Positions 14,595-33,185 of a DNA stretch of 64,000 nucleotides are shown one piece after another; the first letter of the stretch is position 1, and each line of letters starts with the position of its first letter. The DNA is from Arenibacter sp. F20364 (GTDB lineage Bacteria; Bacteroidota; Bacteroidia; Flavobacteriales; Flavobacteriaceae). The translations under genes were made by a program, and so were the position numbers. The stretch covers positions 124,001-188,000 of the forward strand of contig NZ_JALKBD010000006.1 of the NCBI RefSeq assembly GCF_023015905.1. Reading direction: 5' to 3'. The notes under the pieces are model-generated. The model was given only the letters and a program-made list of their open reading frames with translations. It was not told where the DNA came from and did not search any database.

Positions 14595-14696
14595 CCTAAA
14601 CATGGTCTCTTATAACTTAATATGGCTTGAAATGCCCATTTTACGGGTATTTTTCATATCTTCAATATCACATTAAACCATCTGAAATCAAAAAAA

Positions 14697-14718
14697 GCAC
14701 GCCGAAAGCACGCCGAAA
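14697..14718 (+). repeat. Tandem 11 bp repeat, candidate integrase arm-binding site (left)
   Basis: Two perfect copies of GCACGCCGAAA in tandem, flanked by A runs. The same pair in the same orientation occurs at 57748-57769 near the other end. They lie 103 bp inside attL and 45 bp inside attR, so both flank the core in the circular form, as arm-type sites of tyrosine recombinases do. The left pair lies 17 bp before the integrase ATG, so it could also let the integrase regulate itself. Confidence 0.6.
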
Positions 14719-14734
14719 AAAACACTCACTTTTT

Positions 14735-16269: not shown

Positions 16270-17832
16270 ATGTCTTCTAGCCCTCATTTTTCAACTCATG
16301 CACCCATTTTTCAAGGAAGAAAAGTTCCTGAAGAAGGAGTCATTGTCGGATATGCTGCCATTATTCAAAAATTAGGGTTAAAAGTACCTATGCCAAATCA
16401 AATCGCATTGGTCTGCCAGCAAAACAAAAAATATCAATCCGAAGATTGGAACGTTTTACCAAAAAGTTACTTGCCGGATGACAATGCAAATCTCACAGAA
16501 ATAGAAGCGCTTTACAAACACTTGGTATTTTCGTTAAAATATGAAGGCATCAATCTTTTGTTTTTTAGCTTTCTGGCCAAACACTATTACGAGGAACAAC
16601 TATCAATTTTGGTAAGCATAGAACCAACCGGGCAGTACAGCAGACGTATTTGGTTCTTGCTAGAATGGATTATGCAGAAACCTTTGGCAGGAAAAGAAGA
16701 TCTGACCAAGAAAAGTTATGTGCCATTATTGGATGAAAATCTGCAATACGCTATAGAAGGTATAAGGTCATCTCGGCATTTAATTATCAACAATCTACCA
16801 GGCACACCTGATTTCTGTCCTCTCATATTCAAGACTGAAAAGTTAGAGAATTACATTTCCTCTAAACTTTCAGAACGAGAAAACGAGTACTTAAAAGGAA
16901 TCCGCAAAGACATTCTGCAACGTGCCGCGGCATTTCTACTATTGAAGGATTCCAAAGCATCGTTCACAATCGAAGGGGAGAGTCCTCGAAGTAAAAGGGC
17001 TGCCCGCTGGGGACAAGCCATAGGCCAAGCTGGCTATAGTGATCTTAGTAAAGAGGAATTCATCCGTCTTCAACAAATTGTAATAGAGAATCCAAGGTTT
17101 ATAGATATTGGTTTTCGAAAAAAGGGAGGATTTGTGGGAGAGCATGACCGCACAACTGGGGAACCAATTCCAGATCATTTCTCTGCACGCTGGCAGGATA
17201 TAGAAAAATTGATCAACGGTCTTTTGGAAACCAATCGACTGCTGTTGAGTACCAATATGGATGCGGTATTGATTGCAGCTTCGATTGCCTTTGGTTTTGT
17301 TTTTATCCACCCTTTACAGGATGGCAATGGCCGGATACACCGCTACCTTATTCATCATATCTTGGCAAAAAAACAATTTTCGCAACAAGGCATCATATTT
17401 CCAATATCCGCTTCTATTTTGGATCATATCACCGATTACAGAAAAGTACTGGAGGCCTATTCCCATCCGCTGTTGGATTTTATTGAATGGAAAGAGACAC
17501 CTGACCATAATGTAGAGGTTATCAATGAAACTCTAGATTACTATCGTTACTATAATGCCACCAAACAGGCCGAGTTATTGTTTGATTGTGTGAACGACAC
17601 CATAGAGAACGTTATTCCCAAGGAAGTGGTCTATTTAAGAAAGTTTGACGCCTACAAAAGGTTCTTGGAAGATGAATATGAAATGCCAGATAAGATGATA
17701 GCAATATTGGTTCGCTTTTTGGAACAAAACGAGGGCCAGCTTTCCCAAAGAGCACGGAAAAAAGAGTTTAATCAGCTAAAAGATGAAGAAATCCATCGTA
17801 TTGAAAAAAAGTTCAATGAAATCTTCAAATAA
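16270..17832 (+). CDS. Fic-domain protein (probable AMP-transferase) with inhibitory helix motif
   Basis: 520 residues. The Fic motif HPLQDGNGRIHR lies at about residues 346-357; His is the catalytic base and GNGR binds the nucleotide phosphates. The motif SFTIEG at about 231-236 fits the (S/T)xxxE(G/N) inhibitory helix, making this an intramolecularly inhibited class II Fic protein. About 230 N-terminal residues and a helical C-terminal extension (about 430-520) are not assigned. Such proteins transfer AMP from ATP to target proteins. It stands alone between integrase and mobilization genes, a common cargo position, with no separate antitoxin visible. Confidence 0.9.
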   Translation: MSSSPHFSTHAPIFQGRKVPEEGVIVGYAAIIQKLGLKVPMPNQIALVCQQNKKYQSEDWNVLPKSYLPDDNANLTEIEALYKHLVFSLKYEGINLLFFSFLAKHYYEEQLSILVSIEPTGQYSRRIWFLLEWIMQKPLAGKEDLTKKSYVPLLDENLQYAIEGIRSSRHLIINNLPGTPDFCPLIFKTEKLENYISSKLSERENEYLKGIRKDILQRAAAFLLLKDSKASFTIEGESPRSKRAARWGQAIGQAGYSDLSKEEFIRLQQIVIENPRFIDIGFRKKGGFVGEHDRTTGEPIPDHFSARWQDIEKLINGLLETNRLLLSTNMDAVLIAASIAFGFVFIHPLQDGNGRIHRYLIHHILAKKQFSQQGIIFPISASILDHITDYRKVLEAYSHPLLDFIEWKETPDHNVEVINETLDYYRYYNATKQAELLFDCVNDTIENVIPKEVVYLRKFDAYKRFLEDEYEMPDKMIAILVRFLEQNEGQLSQRARKKEFNQLKDEEIHRIEKKFNEIFK

Positions 17833-18296: not shown

Positions 18297-20582
18297 CTAC
18301 ATCGAAAGCCCCCTGCCCTTGTACTTGGAATAATCCGTCAGCTCATCCTTAAAGCCGTTGAAAACTTCATCCTCTTTAAGACTTTTGCCTCCCAAAAGAC
18401 TGCCCAGGGTATACATGCCCTGTCGCAGGAGACTGGCCCGTTTGGCAGCGATCCGTTGTTTGGAAACGGCAAACAGGGCTTCCTTCAGGCCATTTTCCAT
18501 ATGGTGTTCCAATATATCAATGGGGAGGTTTGGCCTTACCCCTTCCAACACGTACAAATAGGCTACTTTATTATATTGCCCTCTCTCCATCAGATACCCG
18601 GACCAGAGGTTTTTTAGATTATCTCGCCCGTTGGCTCCAATATCTTCCAAGATTTTTGTTTGACCCTCCAAGATATTGTCCAAGTTAATCGATGATTCCA
18701 GATAAGCTTGTGTTTTTGGTGCTATAGAAACTTTTACCGGGTACTTGGAATATATAGAACCGATGCATATTTTCTCTCCCCGTTTCTCAAAATAAAAGCC
18801 TTTGGCATTGAAAAACTGGATATAGTCGTTCGGGGATTTTTCAAAAGATACTTGTGTGCGCTCTGCATATTTGTAATAAGTCCTTAGGCTCAAGTTTTCA
18901 AATTTTTTCCTGTACGGCGAGGCCATGGCGCCGTAGAAGTTAGGGAATATCAACGGAAGGAATATCGCGGTCGGGCTAGGTTTGATTTCCTTTTCCGTTC
19001 TGTCGTTCAGTAATCCGTCCAATACCTTTTCGTTCTCCCCTATAAAGCCAGGGGAGGCATAAAATTCGATCTGGTCCGGTATTGTGACATCGGCCAGATC
19101 TAGCTTGACCTTATGTCGATCGGAGTTGACATAGGTCAGGTTGCCGTTGTCATATTTGGTGCCCAGGCTGCGAATAAATTCAAAAAGGACTTCCCTTTGC
19201 TTGGGTGGTTCAAACAGTTGTTTGTCGATTGCCTGTTTTATCAGTCCCGCTTTTGTTTGCAATGCCCGTTCCTCCCTTACCGATTCCGTACCATAAAGCT
19301 TGTCCTTTACAATTCCGAATTGCGCTTGTATCAGATCGCCCAGGTTTCGGTTGTCTGTATGCAGATATTTCCTGAGAAACCTGAAGCGTTCCGATTTGGC
19401 CATTTCCGTTACTATGGACTTTAGGGGCATCCTATCGATATGTTCCGAGAAAAGGGCCCTGCTCCTTGAATCTTGATAGGTGTTCCGATAGGCTTCCTTG
19501 ATGCACCGCTGGAGCTCCAATTGCAGCTGACCGCTTTCCGCATACATCTGGGTATATTCACTTTCGAACAGTCCCGGGTTTTCTGGAATTCCTATATCCT
19601 TCTCCATTTCTTTGCTATTGAGGACATATCCCGATTTGTCATATATCGAGAAATCCACTGCTTTTCCCTGTCCGTCATAGTTTAGCCTACAATCCAATTT
19701 TTGATGGGATCTCAGGATATCGGGAAGGTGTTCGGGGCCGATGGTCCTGAAAAGTCCAAAAGTGGTACGCAGTTGTTTTTCCAGCCGTTTTTTGACCATG
19801 GGCAATAACTTGGATTTTTGGTTGAGCTCAAAGACCTTTTGCAGTTTTGGACCGCTCAATTGTGGGTGGACGGTATAACCGTTGATAAATCTCGACCTGT
19901 AGCCGTCCTTTACTTCGATGCCGAACGATACGCCTATCCTACCATTGTGATTTACGGTCCTTAGCTGAATGTGGTGGGGCCTCAGAAATTCGGAAAGTTC
20001 CTTAAAGCTTCGCACCTTGTACTTCTGCAAGGTGTTGTTTATAATATCTTGCATATAGAACCTTACTCCGCTGATGTCCTCGTTCTTGAATTGGGGCATT
20101 CCATATATCGGAAGTTCCTTTTCTTGCCGCATATCAGGAGATGGGGAGAGCCCGAACTGCTTTTCCAGGTATTTCTGGGTGGCCACGTTCCTTCTGAAAT
20201 CGTTGTTAAGATTTATCTGCAGACAATCCTCCTTTATGGTGGTCGAAACGATATGGACATGTTCGTGCTTGGTATCACAGTGGCGTACTACAATAAAGGG
20301 CTGTTCCCCATAGCCCATATGTTCCATGTAAGCTTTGGAAAGTTCAAAAAAGTCCTTGTCGTCCAATTGTTCGCCACGGGGAAGATTGATAGTGGCATGT
20401 ACATACCGTTTTTCTGAATCGTGCCGGTTGCCGAGATAGTAGAGGACCCTTCCAAAAAACTCCGTATTGGTGTCTGTATCAGAATAAGTGTTCTGGAAGC
20501 CGAGTATGGTGTTATCTGCCTTACCCAGGACATAGTTCAATACTCCCTGCACATTGTTCCGATAAAGTATCCTTGCTATCAT
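18297..20582 (-). CDS. Relaxase/mobilization nuclease (MOBP-like, Bacteroidota type)
   Basis: 761 residues. The N-terminal third carries the relaxase domain: an early tyrosine-rich stretch, HATINLPRGE near 85, and the metal-binding histidine motif HEHVHIV near 130. The rest is a long helical region without a recognised helicase or primase domain. Relaxases nick oriT and lead the DNA strand into the recipient. It follows the MobC gene with a 2 bp gap. With no transfer pore genes in the element, it would need a coresident conjugative element. Confidence 0.9.
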   Translation of the reverse strand: MIARILYRNNVQGVLNYVLGKADNTILGFQNTYSDTDTNTEFFGRVLYYLGNRHDSEKRYVHATINLPRGEQLDDKDFFELSKAYMEHMGYGEQPFIVVRHCDTKHEHVHIVSTTIKEDCLQINLNNDFRRNVATQKYLEKQFGLSPSPDMRQEKELPIYGMPQFKNEDISGVRFYMQDIINNTLQKYKVRSFKELSEFLRPHHIQLRTVNHNGRIGVSFGIEVKDGYRSRFINGYTVHPQLSGPKLQKVFELNQKSKLLPMVKKRLEKQLRTTFGLFRTIGPEHLPDILRSHQKLDCRLNYDGQGKAVDFSIYDKSGYVLNSKEMEKDIGIPENPGLFESEYTQMYAESGQLQLELQRCIKEAYRNTYQDSRSRALFSEHIDRMPLKSIVTEMAKSERFRFLRKYLHTDNRNLGDLIQAQFGIVKDKLYGTESVREERALQTKAGLIKQAIDKQLFEPPKQREVLFEFIRSLGTKYDNGNLTYVNSDRHKVKLDLADVTIPDQIEFYASPGFIGENEKVLDGLLNDRTEKEIKPSPTAIFLPLIFPNFYGAMASPYRKKFENLSLRTYYKYAERTQVSFEKSPNDYIQFFNAKGFYFEKRGEKICIGSIYSKYPVKVSIAPKTQAYLESSINLDNILEGQTKILEDIGANGRDNLKNLWSGYLMERGQYNKVAYLYVLEGVRPNLPIDILEHHMENGLKEALFAVSKQRIAAKRASLLRQGMYTLGSLLGGKSLKEDEVFNGFKDELTDYSKYKGRGLSM

Positions 20583-20584
20583 AT

Positions 20585-20968
20585 TTAATCCTTTGTATTG
20601 ATGGTTTCTATCAGTTCGAGCATCAGTTCGTTGGCCTTTTGCATCTCCCCATCTAGGTTCGCATTTGGGCTCCGCCTGTTCTTGTAGTTGGCCACCTTGA
20701 CCAGTTGATTGATGTTGGTGCCTATCTTGTTCAATTGGTAACTGAGGTTCGAAATACTATCGGGAACCCGTTTCCCCTTTATGGTTTCCCTGTTAAGGAT
20801 AAGCTTTCTTAGGAAAGGGCCAACAGTTCCCCTTTTCCGAAAATCGAGGTTATAAGACTGCAGGATGGCCTTTACCTTTTCCAGTTCCCTGCCATTGAAC
20901 CGAAGCGTTATGGCATGCTCCCGTTTCCTGTCTCCCAACTGTTTTCTGCCGCCTTTGTTTCCAACCAT
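20585..20968 (-). CDS. mobC: Mobilization accessory protein, MobC-like
   Basis: 127 residues. A basic N-terminus and a ribbon-helix-helix-like segment (ITLRFNGRELEKVKAIL) precede the typical family segment LSYQLNKIGTNINQLVKVAN, then a helical tail. MobC-type proteins bind oriT and help the relaxase open it. It is the first gene of a two-gene mob operon, just downstream of the GC-rich structured stretch that may contain oriT. Confidence 0.85.
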   Translation of the reverse strand: MVGNKGGRKQLGDRKREHAITLRFNGRELEKVKAILQSYNLDFRKRGTVGPFLRKLILNRETIKGKRVPDSISNLSYQLNKIGTNINQLVKVANYKNRRSPNANLDGEMQKANELMLELIETINTKD

Positions 20969-21722: not shown

Positions 21723-23288
21723 ATGGCAAAAAAAACAACCACCAAAGAAAAGTCAATTGAAGAAAGCCTATGGGATGCCGCAAACAAACTTCGCGGATCC
21801 ATTGAACCTTCCGAATATAAGCACGTAGTATTGGGTCTTATTTTCCTGAAATTTGCTAGCGACAAATTTGAAGATCGCCGAAAGGAACTGATTGCCGAAG
21901 GCAAAGAAAAGTATATAGAGATGATGGAATTCTATAACATGAAGAATGTCTTCTTCCTTGCCGAGACTTCCCGATGGAGCTATATAATTAAAAAAGCAAA
22001 ACAGGATGATATTGCTTTACAGATAGATACCGCGCTCAACCAAATAGAAAAGAACAATCCTTCCCTTAAAGGAGCTTTGCCCGACAATTATTTCTCACGG
22101 TTAGGATTGGACAAAAGTAAACTGGCCTCCTTGTTGGATACCATTAATAAGATTGATACCCAAAAAGACAAAGCCCAGGATATCGTGGGCCGTGTCTATG
22201 AATATTTCCTGTCAAAATTCGCCTTGGCGGAAGGAAAAGGAAAAGGTGAATTCTATACCCCCAAGAGCATTGTCAACTTAATTGCGGAGATGATAGAACC
22301 TTACAAGGGCATTATCTATGACCCTGCCTGTGGTTCTGGCGGTATGTTCGTACAGTCCATCAAGTTTATAGAAAACCATCACGGCAATAAACAGGAGATT
22401 TCCATTTATGGACAGGAATATACCAATACCACCTATAAACTGGCTAAAATGAATTTGGCCATCCGTGGCATTTCAGCCAATTTGGGTGAAAGGGCAGCGG
22501 ACACTTTTGGTAATGACCAGCACAAAGATTTAAAGGCCGATTATATCATGGCCAACCCGCCCTTTAACCAAAAGGACTGGCGGGGCGAAAATGAATTAGT
22601 GGACGACCCCCGTTGGCGCGGTTACGAGGTGCCGCCCAAAAGCAACGCCAATTACGGTTGGATCCTAAATATGGTGTCGAAACTTTCGGACGATGGCGTA
22701 GCAGGATTTATCTTGGCCAATGGTGCGCTTTCAGGTGGAGGGGAAGAGTATAAAATTAGAAGGAAGTTAGTAGAGAACAATTTGGTAGAGGCCATTGTGA
22801 TTCTTCCCCAAAACATGTTTTATACCACAAACATTAGTGTTACTATCTGGATTCTCAATAAGAACAAGAAAACGCATACCCGAACCATAGGGGACGAAAA
22901 ACGAAACTATCGCGATCGGGAAGAAGAAGTGTTGTTTTTAGATTTACGACAAATCGGCGAACCTTTCGAGAAAAAGTTTATCCAATTCGGCCCACAACAT
23001 ATTAGGGATATTGCAAAAACCTACCACGATTGGCAACAAACGGATTGCGATTATAAAGATGTACCGGAATATTGTTACAGTGCCACCAAGGCGGATATTG
23101 AAAAAAGAGATTTTTCGTTGGTCCCCAGCAAATATATCGAGTTTGTAAACCGGGATGAAAATATTGATTTTGACACCAAAATGACGGCCTTGCAAAGCGA
23201 ACTTTCAGAACTGCTAAGAGCCGAGGAACAATCAAAAAAAGAACTGTTAGAGGTATTTAAAGACTTGGGCTATGAGATCGAATTATAG
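21723..23288 (+). CDS. hsdM: Type I restriction-modification DNA methyltransferase subunit
   Basis: 521 residues, usual length. An HsdM N-terminal helical domain (about 5-150) precedes the N6-adenine methyltransferase domain, with the SAM-binding motif DPACGSGGMF (about 198-207) and catalytic NPPF (about 279-282). The product transfers methyl groups from SAM to adenine in the site chosen by HsdS. The last 17 bp overlap the hsdS start, indicating translational coupling. Confidence 0.97.
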   Translation: MAKKTTTKEKSIEESLWDAANKLRGSIEPSEYKHVVLGLIFLKFASDKFEDRRKELIAEGKEKYIEMMEFYNMKNVFFLAETSRWSYIIKKAKQDDIALQIDTALNQIEKNNPSLKGALPDNYFSRLGLDKSKLASLLDTINKIDTQKDKAQDIVGRVYEYFLSKFALAEGKGKGEFYTPKSIVNLIAEMIEPYKGIIYDPACGSGGMFVQSIKFIENHHGNKQEISIYGQEYTNTTYKLAKMNLAIRGISANLGERAADTFGNDQHKDLKADYIMANPPFNQKDWRGENELVDDPRWRGYEVPPKSNANYGWILNMVSKLSDDGVAGFILANGALSGGGEEYKIRRKLVENNLVEAIVILPQNMFYTTNISVTIWILNKNKKTHTRTIGDEKRNYRDREEEVLFLDLRQIGEPFEKKFIQFGPQHIRDIAKTYHDWQQTDCDYKDVPEYCYSATKADIEKRDFSLVPSKYIEFVNRDENIDFDTKMTALQSELSELLRAEEQSKKELLEVFKDLGYEIEL

Positions 23289-24483
23289 GCCCATAGGAGA
23301 TTATATCCAACTTGTAGATGAACGCAATGTTGATCTAGGAATCAAAACCCTTTTGGGGCTGAGCATATCCAAACAATTCATCCCTTCGGTTGCCAATACT
23401 GTTGGTACCAATATGCGCACCTATAAAATTATTCGTAAAAACCAATTTGCATGTAGTACCATGCAAGTGCGTAGAGACCGGAAAATGCCGGTGGCCTTAT
23501 TACAAGATTTTGAAGAGGCCATCATTTCACAAGCCTACCCAGTTTTTGAAATCAGTGACGAAAAAAAATTGCTTCCTGAATATTTAATGATGTGGTTTTC
23601 TCGGGAAGAATTCGATAGACAGGCGGAGTTTTTAGCCGTTGGTGGTGTACGGGGCACCTTGGAATGGGAAGATTTTTTAGAAATGGAGCTCCCTATCCCC
23701 TCCCTTGAAAAACAACAAGAGATTGTCAATGAATACAACATCATTGCCAATCGCATCAAGTTGAACGACCAACTGAACCAAAAGCTGGAGGAAACCGCAC
23801 AGGCAATTTATAAACATTGGTTTGTTGATTTTGAGTTTCCGGCGCATTTAAGCGGTACCCTGAGTGGACACGAAGGGTACAAATCATCTGGGGGTGCTAT
23901 GTTGTATAATGACGAGTTGGATAAGGAGATTCCGGCGGGATGGGAGGTTAAGAGTTATGAGGAAGTGTTTAATTTTAAAACGGGAAAGTTAAATTCAAAT
24001 GCAGCAATTCCGAATGGTAAATATCCCTTTTTTACATGTTCATCAGAAACATTCTTAACCAATTCATTTTCATTTGATTGTGAGGCTTTATTACTTGCAG
24101 GAAATAATGCTAGTGCAGTTTATCCCTTTAAATATTATAAAGGAAAATTCGATGCTTATCAAAGGACTTATGTTATAACACCAAAATCCAAAGAAGTAAG
24201 TATCTTTCAGGGATATTATGAAGTATTGGGTCAACTTGAAGGCTTTAAGGGAACTTCTTCGGGAACTGCAACTAAGTTCTTAACGATGAAAATACTTAAC
24301 CCATTACTATTAATAGTTCCACACATTAATATTTCCAATTACTTTAGAGATTTATGTTCTCCCCTATTTCTAAAAAAACTACAAATCGACGAGACGAATG
24401 AGAAAATTGTAGAAATGAAAACCCTTCTCCTATCCAAAATGGCAACGGTGGAAGCCGAAAAAGAAATCGAAATATGGAATTAA
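23272..24483 (+). CDS. hsdS: Type I restriction-modification specificity subunit
   Basis: 403 residues. There are two target-recognition domains (about 1-145 and 200-370). The central conserved helix pair (LEKQQEIVNEYNIIAN...AIYKHWFVDFEFP, about 145-190) and a C-terminal helix set the spacing between the two half-sites. It determines the DNA sequence recognised by both methylase and nuclease complexes. Its start overlaps hsdM and its end overlaps the Argonaute gene by 10 bp, so all three are translated as a chain. Confidence 0.96.
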   Translation: MRSNYRPIGDYIQLVDERNVDLGIKTLLGLSISKQFIPSVANTVGTNMRTYKIIRKNQFACSTMQVRRDRKMPVALLQDFEEAIISQAYPVFEISDEKKLLPEYLMMWFSREEFDRQAEFLAVGGVRGTLEWEDFLEMELPIPSLEKQQEIVNEYNIIANRIKLNDQLNQKLEETAQAIYKHWFVDFEFPAHLSGTLSGHEGYKSSGGAMLYNDELDKEIPAGWEVKSYEEVFNFKTGKLNSNAAIPNGKYPFFTCSSETFLTNSFSFDCEALLLAGNNASAVYPFKYYKGKFDAYQRTYVITPKSKEVSIFQGYYEVLGQLEGFKGTSSGTATKFLTMKILNPLLLIVPHINISNYFRDLCSPLFLKKLQIDETNEKIVEMKTLLLSKMATVEAEKEIEIWN

Positions 24484-26483
24484 TTTTAAACCGCCTTCAA
24501 TATAAATGTGCATTTAATGATGTTAAAATCATTGTTTCTAAAGAAAGTGATGCTTTAACGTATTCCATTCAATGGAAATACTTCGTAGATGAATTCACTG
24601 AAAAGAGCCAACTACTTGCTTGGGCAAAACAGAATGAAGTAGATTCGGAAAGCAGAATTTCTTATGAATTTAGCAAAGAGGAGAGTACTCCTTACTTTTC
24701 TTTACCACTCATAACCAAGTTTAAATGGCGATATACCTTTTTTAAAATTGGGCAAAGTTTACTAAGCCAGGGAATGATTGTCGATTTTCACCCGAAAGCG
24801 CTTACACTTTCTTGTTATCTTAAAAAAGAAGAGTTTGACGAAGTATGGGGTATATATAAGCGCATAGATTTCATTCTAAATTACAATGAGAACAATGACA
24901 TTGGCGAAGCTGTTTTTAATATTGGAAGCCATCAAACATTTATCAGTAATGCCGAAATTGAAATTTTAGATGAATACCAAAATGTAAAATGTGTAACGGA
25001 TGGAAATAGGATCACTAGGTCCAGTAATTTAGAACAGAAAACATCGCGACTGATAGCAAATAGAGAAATATTAGATAAATACAATTTGCAGTCAGCACGA
25101 CATCCAATAAATTATAGTCGACGATATAAAGAACTTCTAAATTTCTTTAATCATCATATTAAGGCAAAAGAATTTGATACTTTAAAATTCATTTCTACGG
25201 GGTTTGATAGCCGAAAGGCCCAAAATGTGTCATTCGATCGGAATAGAATGGTCTTTAAAAACGAAAACAAAGACATCAATCCAATAACCGGAATGCGAAA
25301 TTATGGGGTTTACAAAGCGGCACCAAATGCTTCTGAAACTAAGTTTATATTTATTTTCCAACATAATGATGATGCAAATACGCTGTACAAGTACCTGAAA
25401 AATGGCTACAAAGGTTTTCCTGGTTTGGAACGTTACGTGGGTATTCCAATCGTACTTGCAGATTCGCTTACAGAGGGACATCAATATAAGCAACTGCAAT
25501 TCAAATCATTGGAAACCCTGTTCGAGGAATATCAAGATTTTGAAAATATCGAATTATCTGATGATTATTATGAAAACCATTTTGCCATCGTTATTGGAGG
25601 CTTCAGCAAAGATGAGCCACAACAGGTATATTACGATCTTAAATTGGCACTCTTGGCTAAAGGAATTCCATCTCAATTTATCAATCAGTTGAACATTCGA
25701 AAATCATCCGTTTTTAATTACCACTTGCCAAATATTGCCATTGGCATACACGCAAAGCTTGGAGGCATCCCCTGGCGAATTGATTCAAATTTAAAAAAGG
25801 AACTGATCATTGGGTTTAATCAAGATTTTAATAGGGACAGAAAACGATATATAGCCGGTTCGGTGTTTTTTGACAACCATGGAAACTTAAAAAGAAACTT
25901 CGCCTTTCCAGAAGAAGAATTGTCAACCACAATTATCAAGGAATTAAGAAAGGCAGTAAACGCATTTCTCGAAGAGAACGAGGAAATAGAAAGAATTGTT
26001 ATTCACTACCATAAAACCCTTTCTAAGAAGGAGAAAAGAAGTATTGAAAGGCTTTTTAGAGAGGAATTTGATATTACTGTTCCTTATGCCGTTGTCGAGA
26101 TCAACGATACAAAATCGAGAATTGATTTGGCCTTCGACCCTATGCATAACAATCAAATGCCTGTTAGTGGTTCGTTCGTGAGGTTATCCCAGAAAGAATA
26201 TCTCTTATTTAATAACAATAGGTTTAAGGCGGAAGCACCTGTAGGTGTTAAAGATGAATTGCCCTTGAAGATTAAAGTTCATTTTGCCGATGAATCTGGA
26301 TTCTCGCATAAGGAGTTAATAGAGCAGGTTTATGAATTTTCCCGATTAATCTGGAAAGGGCTAAAGCAAAGAAGCCAGCCTGCAACGTGCTTTTATGCGC
26401 ACGAAATTGCACGTTTTAGAGCTCATGTGAACGGGCCAATCCCTGAAAATGAAATTACACAAACAACTCCTTGGGTTATATAG
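24474..26483 (+). CDS. Prokaryotic Argonaute, long type with degenerate PIWI active site
   Basis: 669 residues. Residues about 1-270 are an unassigned N/PAZ-like half. A MID region begins near GMRNYGVYK (273-281) and contains the guide-end segment YYDLKLALLAKGIPSQFI (386-403). The PIWI domain shows the hallmark AKLGGIPWRI (427-436) and a late YAHEIARF (641-648). Where active PIWI domains have the first catalytic Asp after a GI/GF turn this protein reads GFN (447-449), and the RDG-like position reads HYHK (511-514), so slicing is unlikely. Inactive long pAgos work as guide-directed sensors that trigger a partner effector. The gene overlaps hsdS by 10 bp and is followed at 2 bp by a SIR2-domain gene, the likely effector. 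Confidence 0.88.
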   Translation: MELILNRLQYKCAFNDVKIIVSKESDALTYSIQWKYFVDEFTEKSQLLAWAKQNEVDSESRISYEFSKEESTPYFSLPLITKFKWRYTFFKIGQSLLSQGMIVDFHPKALTLSCYLKKEEFDEVWGIYKRIDFILNYNENNDIGEAVFNIGSHQTFISNAEIEILDEYQNVKCVTDGNRITRSSNLEQKTSRLIANREILDKYNLQSARHPINYSRRYKELLNFFNHHIKAKEFDTLKFISTGFDSRKAQNVSFDRNRMVFKNENKDINPITGMRNYGVYKAAPNASETKFIFIFQHNDDANTLYKYLKNGYKGFPGLERYVGIPIVLADSLTEGHQYKQLQFKSLETLFEEYQDFENIELSDDYYENHFAIVIGGFSKDEPQQVYYDLKLALLAKGIPSQFINQLNIRKSSVFNYHLPNIAIGIHAKLGGIPWRIDSNLKKELIIGFNQDFNRDRKRYIAGSVFFDNHGNLKRNFAFPEEELSTTIIKELRKAVNAFLEENEEIERIVIHYHKTLSKKEKRSIERLFREEFDITVPYAVVEINDTKSRIDLAFDPMHNNQMPVSGSFVRLSQKEYLLFNNNRFKAEAPVGVKDELPLKIKVHFADESGFSHKELIEQVYEFSRLIWKGLKQRSQPATCFYAHEIARFRAHVNGPIPENEITQTTPWVI

Positions 26484-26485
26484 GC

Positions 26486-27736
26486 ATGGAACCAATAGAC
26501 TTAAATACGGCGATACAAAAATCTGTTTTCCTTTTAGGAGCTGGTGCTTCCTATGGTACAAAAAAAACACGAACCGGCTGCAAAATGTCTGGGGAAATGT
26601 TCGATGCATTACAAAATTTACTCAACAAGCCTGAAAAAAATGAAATCACAGATGTTGAGGCAGAAGCGTTTCGGTTTTTGATTTCTACCTTACATTACCA
26701 AAATAATTGGCGTAGTCTGGAAAAGAATTCAAAATTTGAATTTAAGCCAAATATAGAAGAGTTGGCACTAGTAATCAGACGGATAAAGAATCGAGAAAAT
26801 TATCTACCTTATCCGATTACAGGAAATTGGGCCGATAAACTTATTCAGTTAGAAAGCAAATTCAATAGTGAAAATAATGATGCCGATTCGTTATTTGAAT
26901 CCCTTGAAAATAAGCTCAAAAGAAAATTATTGCTAAGTTGGCTTCAAATTAATCCTGATTCTTTGAGTTATTTGGAACCGTTGGCACAACTTATGAGTGC
27001 TCAATCTCTAGAATCCCCGATTGAATGCTTTTCGCTTAACTATGACCAAACCATAGAAATTTTTCTTAAGAACAAACACGAGGTTCACCCATATTGTGGT
27101 TTTGTATCGGGAGAATGGAAAGGGCCAAAAACAAAAGATATTGAAGGGTTTGATAGATTAAACTTGTATAAACTTCACGGGTCGCTTGATTGGGTTCGCT
27201 TGATGGATTCGGGAACCATTAAAATACGTGAAAATCTACAAGACGAAGAAGAAAAAGACATAGATCAGCGTCACGACCCATATCTAATTTTTGGTCACGG
27301 TTTGAAAACCTTTTCTTTTGAACCTTTTTCAAGTTTAATGTATCATTTTAAAGAATCACTATCAAAACGTCCTTATATTTTTGCCATAGGGTATAGTTTC
27401 TTTGACCCATACATCAACAATCTTATCATTGAAGCCCTAAATTATAATGAATTCAGCAAACTGATAATAGTAAATCCTGTTTTTGGACCAGAAGATATAA
27501 AAGATGATGAAAGTCGGGTTTTGTCGGAATACATAGAAGAAATTCAAAAAAATACATTTTATAGTGAAATGCCAGAATTTAATATGCAAAAAATTAAGGG
27601 TACTGATCGAATTCGGTATATTAATGTTGGGTTTGATACGTTTCTGTCAGAACATTTTTTAAATAATGGCAAAGGGTTAATTGACCTAATAAATGAATAT
27701 GAAATCGATAGAGGAATGGAAGAAAATCCTTTTTAG
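26486..27736 (+). CDS. SIR2-domain protein, probable NAD-depleting effector of the Argonaute
   Basis: The ATG at 26486 lies 2 bp after the Argonaute stop; an upstream ATG at 26471 in the same frame would overlap it. In the longer numbering (421 residues) FLLGAGASYG (20-29) is the NAD-binding loop, SLNYDQT (188-194) carries the conserved Asn/Asp, KLHGSLDW (234-241) holds the catalytic His 236, and GYSFFDPYIN (307-316) is the late Sir2-fold strand. The defence-associated SIR2 group cleaves NAD+ when activated and halts the infected cell. No APAZ-like extension is apparent, in keeping with a separate long Argonaute. The immediate pairing supports an abortive-infection module. Confidence 0.88.
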   Translation: MEPIDLNTAIQKSVFLLGAGASYGTKKTRTGCKMSGEMFDALQNLLNKPEKNEITDVEAEAFRFLISTLHYQNNWRSLEKNSKFEFKPNIEELALVIRRIKNRENYLPYPITGNWADKLIQLESKFNSENNDADSLFESLENKLKRKLLLSWLQINPDSLSYLEPLAQLMSAQSLESPIECFSLNYDQTIEIFLKNKHEVHPYCGFVSGEWKGPKTKDIEGFDRLNLYKLHGSLDWVRLMDSGTIKIRENLQDEEEKDIDQRHDPYLIFGHGLKTFSFEPFSSLMYHFKESLSKRPYIFAIGYSFFDPYINNLIIEALNYNEFSKLIIVNPVFGPEDIKDDESRVLSEYIEEIQKNTFYSEMPEFNMQKIKGTDRIRYINVGFDTFLSEHFLNNGKGLIDLINEYEIDRGMEENPF

Positions 27737-27824: not shown

Positions 27825-29186
27825 ATGCCAGAAACCAACCGCATAGAATTTAAATCAGAACTGACCAAAGACTTGGATTTGGAAAAAGAGGTGGTGGCCT
27901 TTTTAAACTATCACGAGGGCGGTCTGATTTATATCGGTATTGATAAAACGGAGACCATCCTTGGTGTGGCAGACCCAGATGGCGATATGCTAAAAATAAA
28001 AGACCGTATCAAACATAATATTTCGCCATCGGCCATGGGCTTGTTCGATGTGGTTTCGGAAGATAAAGACGGTAAAACTATCATTAAAATCATTGTAGCA
28101 AGTGGTAGTGAAAAACCGTACTTCAAGAAAAAATACGGGATGACCGAGAAAGGGTGTTACATACGTATTGGTACGGCTGCCGAGCCGATGCCCCAAAAAA
28201 TAATCGAAACATTATTTGCTACCCGTACCCGCAATTCCATTGGCAAAATAAAATCCAATCGGCAGGATCTAAGCTTTGAACAGTTGCTTATTTATTATCA
28301 GGAGAAACGAAAACCACTGAATAAACAGTTTCAAAAAAACCTAGAACTCATCACCCCACAAGGTGATTTAAATTATGCAGCCTACCTCCTAGCCGATGTA
28401 AACAACATTTCGGTAAAAGTAGCCAAATACAAAGGGGATACGCGCGTAGATTTAACTGAGAGCAATGAGTATGGTTATGTTTCCTTGATCAAGGCTACTA
28501 AAAGTGTACTGGATAAAATTGATATTGAGAACCGTACAGGCACCCAAATAACCGCTAAGGAACGTAAGGAAAAACGCCTTTGGAACGCCATTGCCATTAG
28601 GGAAGCGATTATCAACGCTTTTGTGCACAACGACTACACTCGGGAAATAGCACCAAAGTTCGAAATTTTTAATGACCGAATCGAAATTACTTCTGCAGGT
28701 TCCTTGCCCGAAGGCCTGAGCGAAAGCGAATTCTTTGAAGGCTTTTCCATTCCGCGGAACAAAGAACTCATGCGTATTTTCAAAGATCTGGATCTGGTAG
28801 AACAACTGGGTTCGGGCATTCCAAGAATACTGGAATCGTACAGTAAATCATGTTTTCATTTCTCCGATAATTTCCTCAGAATGGTATTCCCTTCGGCAGT
28901 GCCTGTTTATGAAGAACCCGCACAAGAGAAGCCAAAAGATGGGTTGGTAGATGGGTTGGTAAAAGAGTTGGTAAAAGAGTTGGTAAAAGAACTTCCAGAT
29001 ACGCAGATAAAGATACTGAATCTGGTAAGTGAAGATAAACACATTACCATAAGTGCTATGGCAAAAAAGTTAGGAACCAGTACGACTACTATAGATAACC
29101 ATATTGAGATATTAAAAAACAAAAATGTATTGAAACGTGTGGGTGGTAGAAAAACCGGATATTGGCAAATCGTTGAACAAGAATGA
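27825..29186 (+). CDS. AlbA_2 (Schlafen-like) ATP-binding protein with winged-helix tail
   Basis: 453 residues. The N-terminal AlbA_2/Schlafen-AAA domain begins EFKSELTKDLDLEKEVVAFLNYHEGG and runs to about 120. A RecG-C-terminal-like/GHKL-type region follows, with LGSGIPRILESY near 325-336. Short repeats of LV(D/K)(G/E) occur at about 370-392, then a winged HTH (TISAMAKKLGTSTTTIDNHI). These proteins often sit between hsdS and hsdR in Bacteroidota, where their role is not settled. Its last 4 bp overlap hsdR (ATGA). The 88 bp gap before it is the largest in this operon, so an internal promoter there is possible. Confidence 0.85.
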   Translation: MPETNRIEFKSELTKDLDLEKEVVAFLNYHEGGLIYIGIDKTETILGVADPDGDMLKIKDRIKHNISPSAMGLFDVVSEDKDGKTIIKIIVASGSEKPYFKKKYGMTEKGCYIRIGTAAEPMPQKIIETLFATRTRNSIGKIKSNRQDLSFEQLLIYYQEKRKPLNKQFQKNLELITPQGDLNYAAYLLADVNNISVKVAKYKGDTRVDLTESNEYGYVSLIKATKSVLDKIDIENRTGTQITAKERKEKRLWNAIAIREAIINAFVHNDYTREIAPKFEIFNDRIEITSAGSLPEGLSESEFFEGFSIPRNKELMRIFKDLDLVEQLGSGIPRILESYSKSCFHFSDNFLRMVFPSAVPVYEEPAQEKPKDGLVDGLVKELVKELVKELPDTQIKILNLVSEDKHITISAMAKKLGTSTTTIDNHIEILKNKNVLKRVGGRKTGYWQIVEQE

Positions 29187-32100
29187 AAAAGTTTACCGAA
29201 GCACAATTAGAAACCGTATTTGCGACCCAACTGGAACAGGAAGGGTATCCGCACCATTTGGGCAATGCCATAACAAGGGACGAGGACGAAGTACTGATCG
29301 AGGAAGACCTGCGCCATTTCCTGCTACAACAGTATCATGAAGAAGGGATAACCGAGATGGAGGTGCAATCCATCATCCTTCGATTAAAAACCCTTCCATC
29401 TTCGGATCTTTATGAAAGCAACAAAACGTTTATGCGATGGCTTTCAGACGGTTTCTCTCTAAAGCGGGAAGATCATAAGCAAAAGGATATTTGGATTTAC
29501 TTAATCGATTATTCCCCTAAAAATCAGAACACCTATAAATTTGTTAATCAACTGGAAATAATAGGTAATCAAAAACGAATTCCAGATGGAATCATCTATA
29601 TCAATGGTATCCCTGTAGTTGTTTTTGAGTTTAAAACGGCCATTCAGGAAAACACGACCATCCACAATGCCTACGTTCAATTAACTGTACGCTATGAACG
29701 GGACATTCCCGAACTTTTTAAATACAACGCTTTTTGTGTTGTTAGCGATGGTGTAAACACCAAAGCAGGTTCATTATTTGCCCCTTATGAATTCTTTTAT
29801 GCCTGGAGGCGCATTGCAGGATTGGCCAAAGATGTCGACGGTATAGACAGTATGTTTACCCTAATACAAGGGATGTTGCATCACAAAAGAATCCAGGACA
29901 TAATCCGCAATTTTATCTTCTTACCGGATAGTTCCAAAAAGGATGAAAAAATAGTGTGTAGGTATCCACAGTACTACGCAGCCCGGGCTTTGTATGATAA
30001 TATTATAAAAGCCCAAAAACCACAGGGAGACGGGAAGGGAGGCACCTATTTTGGCGCAACCGGCTGCGGTAAAAGCTTTACAATGTTGTTTCTTACCCGT
30101 TTATTGATGAAGAGCGAGCATTTTGAAAGTCCTACGATCATCTTAATTACAGACCGTACCGATTTGGACGATCAGCTTAGCGGGCAATTTACCAATGCCA
30201 AAACCTATGTTGGTGATAATACCATTGTAAGTGTAGAAAGCCGTGCAGATTTGAGGGACCGCATTCAGGGAAGAGAAAGTGGTGGCGTTTTTTTAACCAC
30301 CATCCACAAATTCACGGAAGATACAGAGCTCCTTACTGAAAGAACCAATGTAATCTGTATCTCGGACGAGGCCCATCGTAGTCAAACCAACCTCGATCAA
30401 AAAATAAGAATTACAGAGAAAGGCGTTGAAAAATCCTTTGGCTTTGCCAAATACTTGCACGATTCCCTACCCAATGCCACCTATGTCGGCTTTACCGGAA
30501 CACCCATAGACGCTACGCTTGATGTTTTTGGAAGAGTGGTAGATGAATATACGATGACCGAATCGGTCAAGGATGAAATCACGGTACGAATTGTTTACGA
30601 GGGTCGTGCAGCAAAAGTAGCACTACAAAATAGTGAGCTGCAAAAAATAGAGGAATATTACAAAGTGGCCGAAGAAGATGGTGCCAATGAATATCAAGTT
30701 CAGGAAAGTAAAAATCAATCGGCCAATATGAATGCCATACTTGGTGACCCTGACCGCCTCCAAGCCATTGCCGAAGATTTTGTGAAGCATTATGAAAAAC
30801 GCGTCGATGAAGGAGCCACAGTTGAAGGTAAGGCAATGCTGGTATGCAGTAGCCGTGAAATAGCCTATGACATTTATAAAAACATTATAGCCCTTAGACC
30901 AGAATGGGCCGTTGTGAAAAAAGCAGCCTTAGGGACAAAACTTACGGATAGGGAAAAGCGTGAAATAAAACCTATTGAACGGATTAAATTGATAATGACT
31001 CGTGGAAAGGATGACCCTAAAGCGATGTATGACCTTTTGGGCACCAAGGAATATCGAAAAGAACTGGATCGGCAATTTAAAAGTGGAAAGTCCAACTTTA
31101 AAATCGCAATCGTGGTCGATATGTGGCTCACGGGCTTTGATGTGCCTTTTCTAGATAGCATTTATATAGATAAGCCCATACAACAGCACAACCTTATCCA
31201 GACCATATCCCGTGTCAACAGAAAATTTGCTGGCAAGAATAAAGGTCTGGTGATTGATTATATAGGCATAAAAAAACAAATGAACTTGGCCTTGGCCAAA
31301 TACAACAAGGGCGATCAGCAGAATTTTGAAGACATTAGGGAATCATTGGTTGTGGTTAGGAACCATCTGGATCTTTTAGGTAAAATTCTTCATAAGTTTG
31401 ACAGTACCCCCTATTTTGATGGCACTGCTTTACAACAACTCAACACTTTAAATCAAGCATCGGAATACGTGCAAACAACTAAAGAAACAGAGACCCGGTT
31501 TATGGGCTTGGTGAAGCGGTTGAAGGCTGCCTACGATATTTGTGCGGGAAGTGAAAAATTGACTCAGATAGAACGAGACTACACCCATTTTTATCTTGCG
31601 GTACGTTCCATCGTTTTTAAATTGACCAAAGGAAACGCTCCTGATACCGCACAAATGAACGCGAGGGTACGAGAGATGATAAAGGATGCTCTTGCCAGTG
31701 AAGGGGTTGAAGAGATATTTAAGATGGGAAATGAAGAGGAAAGCGAACAGGATATTTTTGATGAAGCTTACATGGCCAAGATCGATAAGATTAAATTACC
31801 CAACACCAAAATAAAATTACTTCAACAGTTGCTTGCCAAAGCCATTGGTGAAATGAGAAAAGTCAATAAAGTAAAGGGGGTTGATTTTTCAAAGAAAATG
31901 GAATCCCTGGTTGCCCGTTATAACGAACGCAAGGAAAATGATGTCCTACGCAGTGAAGTTTATGAGGAGATGGCGGAAGAATTGACCAAACTCATTTGGG
32001 AGGTACAAAAGGAATTTAAAGCTGGGGACGTTTTAGGAATCGATTTTGAGGAAAAGGCATTTTATGATATACTAAAGGAATTATGCAATAAGTATGATTT

Positions 32101-32329
32101 TAGATATCCCGAAGAAAAATTGATAGAGCTTGCCAAAGCAGTTAAGGATCTTGTGGATGGACAGGCAAAATTTCCTGATTGGAGTAAGCGAAACGACATT
32201 AAATCTGCCCTCAAAGTGGGCCTTATCTTATTACTGGATGAATACGGCTATCCACCAGTAGAAAGAGACGAAGTATATACTGAAATTTTTGAACAGGCCG
32301 AGAATTTTAAGAAGAACAGAGAGGTTTAA
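29183..32329 (+). CDS. hsdR: Type I restriction endonuclease subunit
   Basis: 1048 residues. An N-terminal PD-(D/E)xK nuclease (DGIIYINGIPVVVFEFKT, about 135-153) precedes the translocase with Walker A GATGCGKS (about 290-297), the SDEAHRSQ box (about 393) and helicase motifs as far as QTISRVNRKF (about 675). A C-terminal helical region binds the methylase complex. It pumps unmodified DNA and cuts it. It starts inside the stop of the AlbA_2 gene. It appears intact, so the restriction system should be active. Confidence 0.97.
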   Translation: MKKFTEAQLETVFATQLEQEGYPHHLGNAITRDEDEVLIEEDLRHFLLQQYHEEGITEMEVQSIILRLKTLPSSDLYESNKTFMRWLSDGFSLKREDHKQKDIWIYLIDYSPKNQNTYKFVNQLEIIGNQKRIPDGIIYINGIPVVVFEFKTAIQENTTIHNAYVQLTVRYERDIPELFKYNAFCVVSDGVNTKAGSLFAPYEFFYAWRRIAGLAKDVDGIDSMFTLIQGMLHHKRIQDIIRNFIFLPDSSKKDEKIVCRYPQYYAARALYDNIIKAQKPQGDGKGGTYFGATGCGKSFTMLFLTRLLMKSEHFESPTIILITDRTDLDDQLSGQFTNAKTYVGDNTIVSVESRADLRDRIQGRESGGVFLTTIHKFTEDTELLTERTNVICISDEAHRSQTNLDQKIRITEKGVEKSFGFAKYLHDSLPNATYVGFTGTPIDATLDVFGRVVDEYTMTESVKDEITVRIVYEGRAAKVALQNSELQKIEEYYKVAEEDGANEYQVQESKNQSANMNAILGDPDRLQAIAEDFVKHYEKRVDEGATVEGKAMLVCSSREIAYDIYKNIIALRPEWAVVKKAALGTKLTDREKREIKPIERIKLIMTRGKDDPKAMYDLLGTKEYRKELDRQFKSGKSNFKIAIVVDMWLTGFDVPFLDSIYIDKPIQQHNLIQTISRVNRKFAGKNKGLVIDYIGIKKQMNLALAKYNKGDQQNFEDIRESLVVVRNHLDLLGKILHKFDSTPYFDGTALQQLNTLNQASEYVQTTKETETRFMGLVKRLKAAYDICAGSEKLTQIERDYTHFYLAVRSIVFKLTKGNAPDTAQMNARVREMIKDALASEGVEEIFKMGNEEESEQDIFDEAYMAKIDKIKLPNTKIKLLQQLLAKAIGEMRKVNKVKGVDFSKKMESLVARYNERKENDVLRSEVYEEMAEELTKLIWEVQKEFKAGDVLGIDFEEKAFYDILKELCNKYDFRYPEEKLIELAKAVKDLVDGQAKFPDWSKRNDIKSALKVGLILLLDEYGYPPVERDEVYTEIFEQAENFKKNREV

Positions 32330-32350
32330 CCAAAGAATAGGTCTATTTGC

Positions 32351-32497
32351 TCATTCAATTGCTCCCTCAATTGCTCCATCATTTGCTCCTACATCTGTTT
32401 CATCAGCGCCTCCAAGAATAGATCTAGGAATAATAGTCTTAAAAGTAGCTCCTTCAATAAATTGGACGTTATCTGGTACTGATGGTGGAATTGGCAT
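32351..32497 (-). pseudogene. Fragment of a second AlbA_2/RecG-like gene (C-terminal linker)
   Basis: Minus-strand translation gives about 48 residues resembling the segment after the ATP-binding domain of AlbA_2/RecG-like proteins (FIEGATFKTIIP), then VGANDGAIEGAIE repeats and a stop. Similar FKEATFIIAIP and VGANDGAIEGAIE sequences occur in the minus-strand fragment at 55899-56218. It lies antisense to the front of the integrase fragment and directly after hsdR. It is a remnant, not a working gene. Confidence 0.6.
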
Positions 32498-33185
32498 AAA
32501 AATGAGAGCTATTAGAGCACTTTACAACCTAGCATTTGAACGCAACCTTGTTAAGGAAGAGTTCTACCCATTCAAAACATATAAGGTTTCCAAATTGAAG
32601 GGTAAGAGTCCTAAAAAGGCATTGACTATGGAGCAAGTCAAGAAAATAGTTGACCTTGACTTGAAGAAATATCCTTCTTTGGCCAATACCAGAAATTATT
32701 TTGTCTTTAGCTTATATACAAGAGGAATGAACTTTACCGACATGATGAAGCTGGAATGGAGTACAATTGATGACAACAAAATTTTCTATACCCGTTCAAA
32801 AACCAAAGGAAATTTTATGATCAAGATATTACCTCCTGTTCGGGAAATTTTAGATTATTATCAAGAATATTCCTTGGGAACGAAATATGTATTCCCCATT
32901 CTGTTAAAGGATGAATTAACCCCATTACAACTCGAAAATAGAAAGCACAAAACTCTTCAACGTTACAATAAGGAATTAAAAGAAACTGCAAAAATCTGTG
33001 GAATAGATAAACCTTTGAGCAGTTACGTTGCACGACATAGTTATGCCAACTGCTTAAAGCAAAAAGGAGTTGCTACCGATGTTATCAGTGAATCTATGGG
33101 GCATCAAAATTTGGCAGTTACACAGGCCTATTTAAAAGAATTGGATAGCGCTGTTTTGGATGAGGCGAGTGAGCTTCTTTTGTAG
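32481..33185 (+). pseudogene. Truncated tyrosine recombinase (catalytic half only)
   Basis: The open frame begins at 32289 inside the hsdR end, but the first 60 residues are unrelated filler. Homology starts near GIGIKMRAIRALYNLAF, the end of the core-binding domain, and continues to the stop. The catalytic set is complete: Arg I in TRGMNF, Lys in KTKGNF, SYVARHSYAN with Arg II, GHQNLAVTQAY with His and Tyr. Arm domain and first part of the core-binding domain are missing. Recombinases beside type I loci in Bacteroidota can invert hsdS; this may be such an enzyme in decay or the end of an older element. Confidence 0.75.

Follow-up and report, generated by a model that had tools for sequence, protein, structure and literature searches.

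Locus and Gene Order

We analysed a 64,000-nt stretch of Arenibacter sp. F20364 (contig NZ_JALKBD010000006.1, positions 124,001 to 188,000, forward strand), referred to below as the window, in which the genes of a prokaryotic Argonaute (pAgo) and a SIR2 protein lie inside a type I restriction–modification (R-M) operon (Table 1). HsdM, HsdS and HsdR were all full length and encoded on one strand, forming a complete type I R-M operon according to Pfam and PADLOC, with predicted restriction and methylation activity. The pAgo–SIR2 pair (24474–27736) was placed between hsdS and the SLFN_AlbA_2 and hsdR genes. Overlaps were found between hsdM and hsdS (17 bp), hsdS and the pAgo gene (10 bp), and the AlbA_2 gene and hsdR (4 bp). 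The pAgo stop codon was separated from the SIR2 ATG by 2 bp, and SIR2 from the SLFN_AlbA_2 gene by 88 bp. SIR2 was read from the ATG at 26486; the list of open reading frames (ORFs) also contains an alternative TTG start further 5′, at 26471. An earlier note on this DNA had described the overlap with hsdS, the closely following SIR2 gene, and then AlbA_2 and hsdR, and its gene order and coordinates all held.

Table 1. Genes of the operon and flanking mobility genes, with positions in the window.
Feature	Position	Strand	Support
hsdM, type I R-M methyltransferase subunit	21723–23288	+	Pfam N6_Mtase 8e-104, HsdM_N 4e-26
hsdS, type I specificity subunit	23272–24483	+	Pfam Methylase_S 9e-16, two stretches
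long-B-like pAgo, 669 aa, predicted catalytically dead	24474–26483	+	Pfam Piwi 4e-17; PADLOC pAgo 5e-100
SIR2_2 effector (bAgaS-like), 416 aa	26486–27736	+	Pfam SIR2_2 8e-8; PADLOC Aga_SIR2 1e-67
SLFN_AlbA_2/HATPase_c_4/winged-helix protein	27825–29186	+	Pfam SLFN_AlbA_2 3e-20
hsdR, type I restriction/translocase subunit	29183–32329	+	Pfam HSDR_N 4e-33, SWI2_SNF2, T1RH-like_C 7e-93; PADLOC REase_I 0
tyrosine recombinase, 5′ of operon	14627–16048		Pfam
MobA-type relaxase and MobC, 5′ of operon	18297–20968		Pfam
second tyrosine recombinase, directly 3′ of hsdR	32289–33185		Pfam

The Argonaute and SIR2 Proteins

Among solved structures, the best matches to a pAgo profile built from 30 sequences were AfAgo (which we take to be a long-B pAgo), EcAgo and RsAgo. 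RsAgo and EcAgo are described as long-B pAgos in the relevant part of PMC10620215. The top Foldseek match of the AlphaFold model of the window pAgo (pLDDT 88.9) was RsAgo with guide RNA and target DNA (TMq 0.67 over 813 alignment columns including gaps). Aligned to the catalytic tetrad of TtAgo, whose second position aligned poorly, the window pAgo had N449, T485, H513, and H643. In all 81 rows (80 related loci and the window), the first tetrad position was occupied by G or N and the third by Y, F or H, whereas TtAgo has D. Residues Y386, K390, Q401, and K428, which we read as the guide 5′-phosphate pocket motif of the MID domain, were conserved in 81 of 81 rows. Because the tetrad appears dead while these four residues are kept, the window pAgo should bind a guide without cutting.

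The SIR2 protein gave SIR2_2 only in Pfam. Its model (pLDDT 85.5) had chains of SIR2-HerA entries as nearest Foldseek matches, with SPARSA and ThsA ranking lower. N185 and H231, presumably the catalytic Asn and His judging by motif, were invariant in 19 of 19 aligned SIR2 rows, and the protein is predicted to destroy NAD+. The tetrad and the conserved SIR2_2 residues bear out the earlier view that the long pAgo is inactive and partnered by SIR2. By its sequence, the window pair matches BPAS (long-B pAgo with SIR2), a known abortive-infection system.

Relatives Recur in and Behind R-M Operons

Relatives of the window pAgo were taken as the best 80 of 170 found in one scan of GTDB genomes with one peptide pattern; one of the counts was made on 78 after L095 and L124, which have an identical pAgo, had been removed, and the Fisher test used all 80. 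Controls were pAgo loci of the phylum outside this group (18, reduced to 15 by omission of L132, L133, and L144, which had a doubtful or fragmentary pAgo row). An R-M core gene was detected in the contiguous same-strand run in 53 of the 80 relatives versus two of the 15 control pAgos (Fisher p = 3e-4), with loci cut by a contig end scored as misses in the 80-locus figures. In these runs, R-M genes were upstream of the pAgo in 52 relatives and downstream in five. Among the 61 distinct loci fully flanked by at least 2.5 kb on each side, R-M genes were upstream in 42 and downstream in four (upstream only, 39; downstream only, one; p = 7e-11). With one locus per 70%-identity cluster, represented by the member listed first, the counts were 24/38 upstream and 3/38 downstream (p = 6e-6).

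Strand was assessed in 63 fully flanked loci. Within six genes, 45 had same-strand R-M genes upstream and five had them downstream; none had any on the opposite strand. The gap between the pAgo and the preceding gene had a median of 17 bp and was 50 bp or less in 40 of 52 cases. Because of this fixed side and strand and the short spacing, operon membership is favoured: all three fit it, and not loose clustering in defence islands.

Partner R-M systems were type I, type III, Eco57I-type, and C5-methylase/McrB-like. R-M labels were based on local profiles seeded with window proteins and Pfam-checked proteins, with Pfam confirming a sample only; labels in L052, L084, and L102 were doubtful, as were ‘Eco57I’ ORFs of 188–198 aa from the hsdS–hsdR slot survey described below. 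The earlier note had proposed looking for the same gene order in related genomes. R-M genes stood in the same run in 53/80 relatives and in 13/14 members of the window clade, but placement between R-M genes as in the window was the rarer form, with R-M on the downstream side in 5/80. Its link to type I hsd operons survives as a link to R-M operons, though of several types and not hsd-specifically. It had also considered that the pair might occur mostly outside hsd loci, this one being a single chance case: type I genes accompanied 6/18 SIR2-bearing representatives, so most are outside hsd loci, but R-M genes of any type accompanied 12/18, so the case is not single.

None of the omitted controls had an upstream R-M gene (L132 had an M-labelled gene downstream, on the other strand), and control L128 itself had a SIR2 neighbour. 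Nine more pAgo loci in the tree described below were in neither count (L032, L034, L038–L044). Upstream R-M core genes were found in L032, L041, L042, and L043, and a short Mod-labelled ORF in L039; R-M genes were absent from L034, L038, L040, and L044. Across the phylum, a pAgo match was present in 28 of 395 sampled genomes.

Exchange Between R-M Operons

In a quick tree of 105 pAgos, which carried long-branch warnings, the window pAgo belonged to a 14-row group (SH-aLRT 100). The R-M genes in the same run were of type I in six rows (the window, L046, L047, L049, L054, and L058), type III in L051, Eco57I-type in L050, L052 (via a contig-cut fragment), L053, L055, and L057, and a C5 methylase with a McrB-like gene in L048; L056 was without R-M. 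Record titles named Bacteroidota, Ignavibacteriota, Planctomycetota, Nitrospirota, Actinomycetota, and two archaeal metagenome-assembled genomes (MAGs), but organism names are based on MAG contigs, some of them short (L050, L052, L054), and misbinning is possible. Embedded arrangements were hsdS-[pAgo-SIR2]-x-AlbA_2-hsdR in L046, hsdM-Fic-hsdS-[pAgo-SIR2]-Mrr-HNH-AlbA_2-hsdR in L047 and hsdM-[pAgo-SIR2]-hsdS-hsdR in a Pacearchaeota MAG contig (L054:665-10019). In the other nine R-M-linked rows, the pair stood behind the R-M genes.

DNA-level comparisons (E ≤ 1e-10) covered 16 pairs of closely related loci. L049, a type I locus with the order R-M-S, and L051, a type III locus, were 91% identical over 3289 columns and had no other DNA in common at this threshold; the common stretch starts 9 bp inside the pAgo gene and stops 27 bp short of the SIR2 end. 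L047 (type I) and L048 (C5 methylase/McrB-like) were 83% identical from 14 bp before the pAgo gene through the SIR2 end. L056, which has no R-M genes, had only the pAgo–SIR2 pair in common with L049 and L051. In L055 and L057, both with PLD-helicase and Eco57I-type genes, some upstream DNA was also common. On the pAgo tree, R-M type changed 18 times over 54 labelled rows, compared to a mean of 19.9 (range 15–22) in 200 shuffles; R-M partner type is thus nearly independent of pAgo descent.

Read from these alignments, the pAgo–SIR2 pair is an exact plug-in that appears to have been exchanged whole among R-M operons of different types. The earlier proposal that a discrete cassette entered the R-M operon agrees with this, as the pair alone is common to unrelated operons and close hsd relatives hold other genes in the corresponding slot. 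We are highly confident in the identity of the pair as BPAS-type and its plug-in history taken jointly. SLFN_AlbA_2 was also located 3′ of SIR2 in L048 and L063, whose remaining genes differ from those of the window. In some of the clade, AlbA_2 may belong with the pAgo–SIR2 cassette.

The Sister Group Without SIR2

The sister group of the window clade (those among L062–L125 without SIR2) also had dead pAgos beside R-M genes of several types. Of 44 representatives, 29 had R-M genes in the run, and every other neighbour family was in 13 or fewer. Occasional neighbours were DUF3987/BT4734-like proteins, RhuM, and AlbA_2. The extent of common DNA varied: the pAgo gene alone in L066 (type III) versus L068 (type I); the pAgo gene and more distant stretches in L073 (type III) versus L080 (type I); also the gene preceding the pAgo in L094/L099, L110/L113, and L102/L109 (RhuM-like or RecD-like, e.g., in L094/L099 and L102/L109); and most of the operon in L083/L086 and L105/L119.

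A family of ~740 aa occurred in 12 of the 44 representatives and includes an L065 protein with Pfam-checked PF08800 and DUF3987 domains; we take PF08800 to be the family formerly named VirE_N. Part of the sister group may therefore be the long-B set with a VirE-N neighbour or no partner. The function of that set is left open in the part of Song et al. concerned with it (PMC10620215). A further possibility is that this whole lineage of guide-binding, catalytically dead pAgos has the R-M machinery itself as its partner. In that case, guide pairing could allow the sister-group pAgo to direct or license restriction, and SIR2 would be a suicide step gained by the window branch. We consider this speculative and rather unlikely.

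The hsdS–hsdR Cargo Slot

The window hsdR was searched in 295 genomes of the class, and 20 stretches covering 21 of 44 non-window hsdR places were read, including 10 of the 12 loci with an hsdR at least 68% identical to that of the window. In these ten close hsd relatives (hsdR 68–82% identical), other ORFs were located between hsdS and hsdR in all ten and AlbA_2 in five, so that hsdM-hsdS-AlbA_2-hsdR, which the earlier note had called the usual Bacteroidota order, does not stand as such. No pAgo was found in the hsdS–hsdR slot of the ten.

Slot proteins were scanned with Pfam and PADLOC in six of the ten relatives. The slots held Old/GajA-like and GmrSD genes in L175, which belongs to the same family as the window, SIR2-HerA in L177, Tmn in L181, a PrrC-like PDC-S06 protein in L182, an AAA_15 protein (Pfam only) in L183, and Gabija in L184, with GajB assigned by PADLOC and a GajA-like partner by Pfam. 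In L186, a more distant hsd relative, a pAgo ORF cut by the stretch end began 6 bp 3′ of hsdR. A separate pAgo lineage occupied the same slot in L041:4375-15541 (hsdM-AlbA_2-hsdS-x-pAgo-Aga_HEPN-x-hsdR, the pAgo being stop-broken). Since close hsd relatives carry such varied genes between hsdS and hsdR, this position is a cargo slot of the hsd operon, and the pAgo lineage is one among those that make use of R-M operons.

Genomic Setting and Searches of Mobile DNA

With recombinase and mobilisation genes around it (Table 1), the operon is probably located on a mobilisable island. A direct-repeat search of the window did not find the island ends, and an AT-rich 22-mer repeat pair, the only such pair seen, was rejected as a candidate. 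Promoter and terminator scans gave counts close to the shuffled level and were not used. The upstream recombinase adjoins a Fic protein gene (16270–17832) matching the PADLOC candidate defence family PDC-S24 (3.5e-183).

Among viral contigs, a single-protein search yielded no pAgo relatives, and a search with a 30-row alignment yielded one distant locus. In that locus (L196:539-6496), a PLD-helicase-like gene, a gene for a 218-aa protein and the pAgo gene formed a single run. Plasmids (E ≤ 1e-15) yielded one distant pAgo match and four SIR2 matches, of which three Hymenobacter records had pAgo–SIR2 and an Arthrobacter record did not; no near DNA match to the operon was found in plasmids.

Proposed Mechanism and Alternatives

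That relatives of the pair recur in and behind unlike R-M operons hints at possible cooperation between the two defences. We propose an R-M operon with a BPAS-type cassette in its slot, in which a restriction-fed, RNA-guided pAgo would fire SIR2. The R-M enzyme would be the first layer. As the second, the pAgo, loaded with 5′-phosphate RNA guides as in RsAgo and EcAgo, would scan for complementary single-stranded DNA (ssDNA), which should be scarce in the protected host and arise on translocation, cutting, and resection of unmethylated foreign DNA. Target binding would free the SIR2 NADase from a restraint by the pAgo like that in GbBPAS; NAD+ would drop, and the cell would halt before the phage or plasmid could spread. 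The co-encoded methyltransferase would shield the host from both layers. RNA guides, NAD+ loss, and pAgo restraint of SIR2 would hold in this lineage by analogy with studied systems. We judge this mechanism as a whole to be evenly poised between right and wrong.

Ends and single strands arise on restriction chiefly when DNA is unprotected or, with McrBC-like enzymes, when it is wrongly modified. Whichever R-M enzyme it follows, a pAgo would therefore meet mostly foreign targets, and such a supply from any restriction fits the indifference to R-M type. The ssDNA-supply step alone, in which restriction furnishes the pAgo targets, is put forward tentatively, and on balance we lean against it. The earlier note had suggested restriction products as guide or target DNA. 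Targets are the likelier role because the inactive pAgos studied, as described in PMC10620215, use 5′-phosphate RNA guides against ssDNA.

Several observations weigh against the two defences being coupled. Six of the 18 SIR2-bearing representatives were without R-M genes, L056, L060, L061, and L085 despite long flanks on both sides, as were the pAgo–SIR2 loci L040 and L044, which are not among the 80. The side preference weakened with 50% clusters (upstream 8/15, downstream 2/15; discordant 7 versus 1, p = 0.07), and 40% clusters were uninformative (1/5 on each side). GbBPAS, a gammaproteobacterial pair, acts in E. coli on a plasmid, from an expression vector, in the experiments described in PMC10620215. 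The slot of close hsd relatives holds unlike systems (Gabija, SIR2-HerA, Tmn, and PrrC-like), and the data also fit an independent cargo gaining only expression or retention. As an observation on one R-M-free locus, the gene for a single protein with DACNG, DACNH, and DAC domains (L085:7930-9675), a predicted sensor and DisA-like nucleotide-binding domain, was located upstream of pAgo–SIR2.

Such independent cargo is the strongest competing explanation: R-M operons would be insertion sites that grant expression and R-M-based retention, and pAgo–SIR2 would act independently of restriction. Given the varied slot cargo, shared expression or an insertion hotspot could account for the position without functional dependence. 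Other ORFs occupied the slot in all ten near hsd relatives, the six scanned including GmrSD besides the systems just named, and SIR2 loci without R-M exist. Published examples of such cargo are DarTG2, located between hsdS and hsdR in an enteropathogenic E. coli (EPEC) type I R-M system (in the part of PMC12255303 describing it), and TgvAB, located within the hsd cluster of V. cholerae VPI-2 (likewise PMC11411939). However, this pAgo lineage is concentrated at R-M genes (53/80) compared to the other pAgos of the phylum (2/15), and a hotspot alone is insufficient for this contrast. We regard the explanation as a serious one, if less probable than the restriction-fed mechanism.

A guard or backup arrangement, in which the R-M complex restrains pAgo–SIR2 and phage anti-restriction proteins release it, has a precedent in PrrC with EcoprrI. 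PrrC is a product of a type Ic hsd operon and is held inactive by it, according to the part of PMC3710099 on this system. The 10-bp overlap of the pAgo gene with hsdS is in keeping with such a guard. Close cassettes were nonetheless found with type I, type III, Eco57I-type, and McrB-like systems, among which a specific HsdMS tether would be hard to maintain. The lineage is not tied to one R-M type (18 changes on the pAgo tree versus a shuffled mean of 19.9), and this indifference speaks against a PrrC-like tether to one enzyme. In addition, GbAgo itself suppresses GbAgaS in the account of PMC10620215. We find a guard improbable. Plain defence-island clustering without operon membership would match the statistical proximity of pAgos to defence gene classes including R-M reported in the part of Makarova 2009 on their neighbourhoods (PMC2743648), but is very improbable given the short gaps and fixed side and strand (upstream same strand 45/63, downstream five, opposite none).

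Comparison With Known Systems

The closest known system is BPAS, in which, as in the window, a dead long pAgo is encoded directly 5′ of a SIR2_2 effector that retains its NAD-site residues. In GbBPAS, SIR2 alone kills, the pAgo suppresses it and an invading plasmid triggers NAD+ loss and killing, as presented in the sections on this pair in PMC10620215. According to the same source, BPAS are mostly simple operons of two or three genes (a usual, not a defining, feature), whereas the window pair is embedded in an hsd operon and the clade to which it belongs stands beside several R-M types. SPARSA has a SIR2 NADase under pAgo control, as predicted for the window pair, but combines a short pAgo with SIR2-APAZ. 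Identity with SPARSA was rejected, as the window has a 669-aa pAgo with a model closest to RsAgo and a SIR2 protein with SIR2_2 only in Pfam.

The prrC gene is also positioned before hsdR, and PrrC–EcoprrI is like the window in having a suicide effector within a type I R-M operon. It differs in that PrrC is an anticodon nuclease held by one type Ic enzyme, whereas pAgos of this lineage occur with several R-M types. DarTG2 and TgvAB are likewise complete second defence systems inside hsdS–hsdR (DarTG2) or the hsd cluster (TgvAB), but they represent a toxin–antitoxin and a type IV restriction system, in contrast to the guided Argonaute of the window.

Among pAgo surveys, Ryazansky et al. (2018) listed HsdS (og_11) and type III enzymes among pAgo operon genes and revealed no defined operon composition (PMC6299218). 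R-M genes were thus counted in pAgo operons, but the sections of that survey on orthogroups do not describe embedding, a cassette or partner exchange. Beyond these orthogroup counts, the literature searched yielded no account that places pAgo–SIR2, or any other pAgo, in R-M operons as a resident, and neither cassette exchange nor a pAgo lineage tied to R-M was described; a survey of BREX (PMC12839542) does not mention Argonaute.

EcAgo takes 5′-phosphate RNA guides indiscriminately from the transcriptome and recognises ssDNA, in the part of Song et al. that deals with it (PMC10620215). The same source states that invader discrimination varies among such systems and that it is unsettled how the host is spared by a dead pAgo whose guides come from the entire transcriptome. 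Coupling to R-M gives a testable answer to this question, in which methylation would decide which DNA turns single-stranded. While defence systems in hsd operons were already known, the generalisation to a pAgo lineage and R-M operons appears to be new, and the cassette together with the cargo slot offers a route to finding more embedded defence systems.

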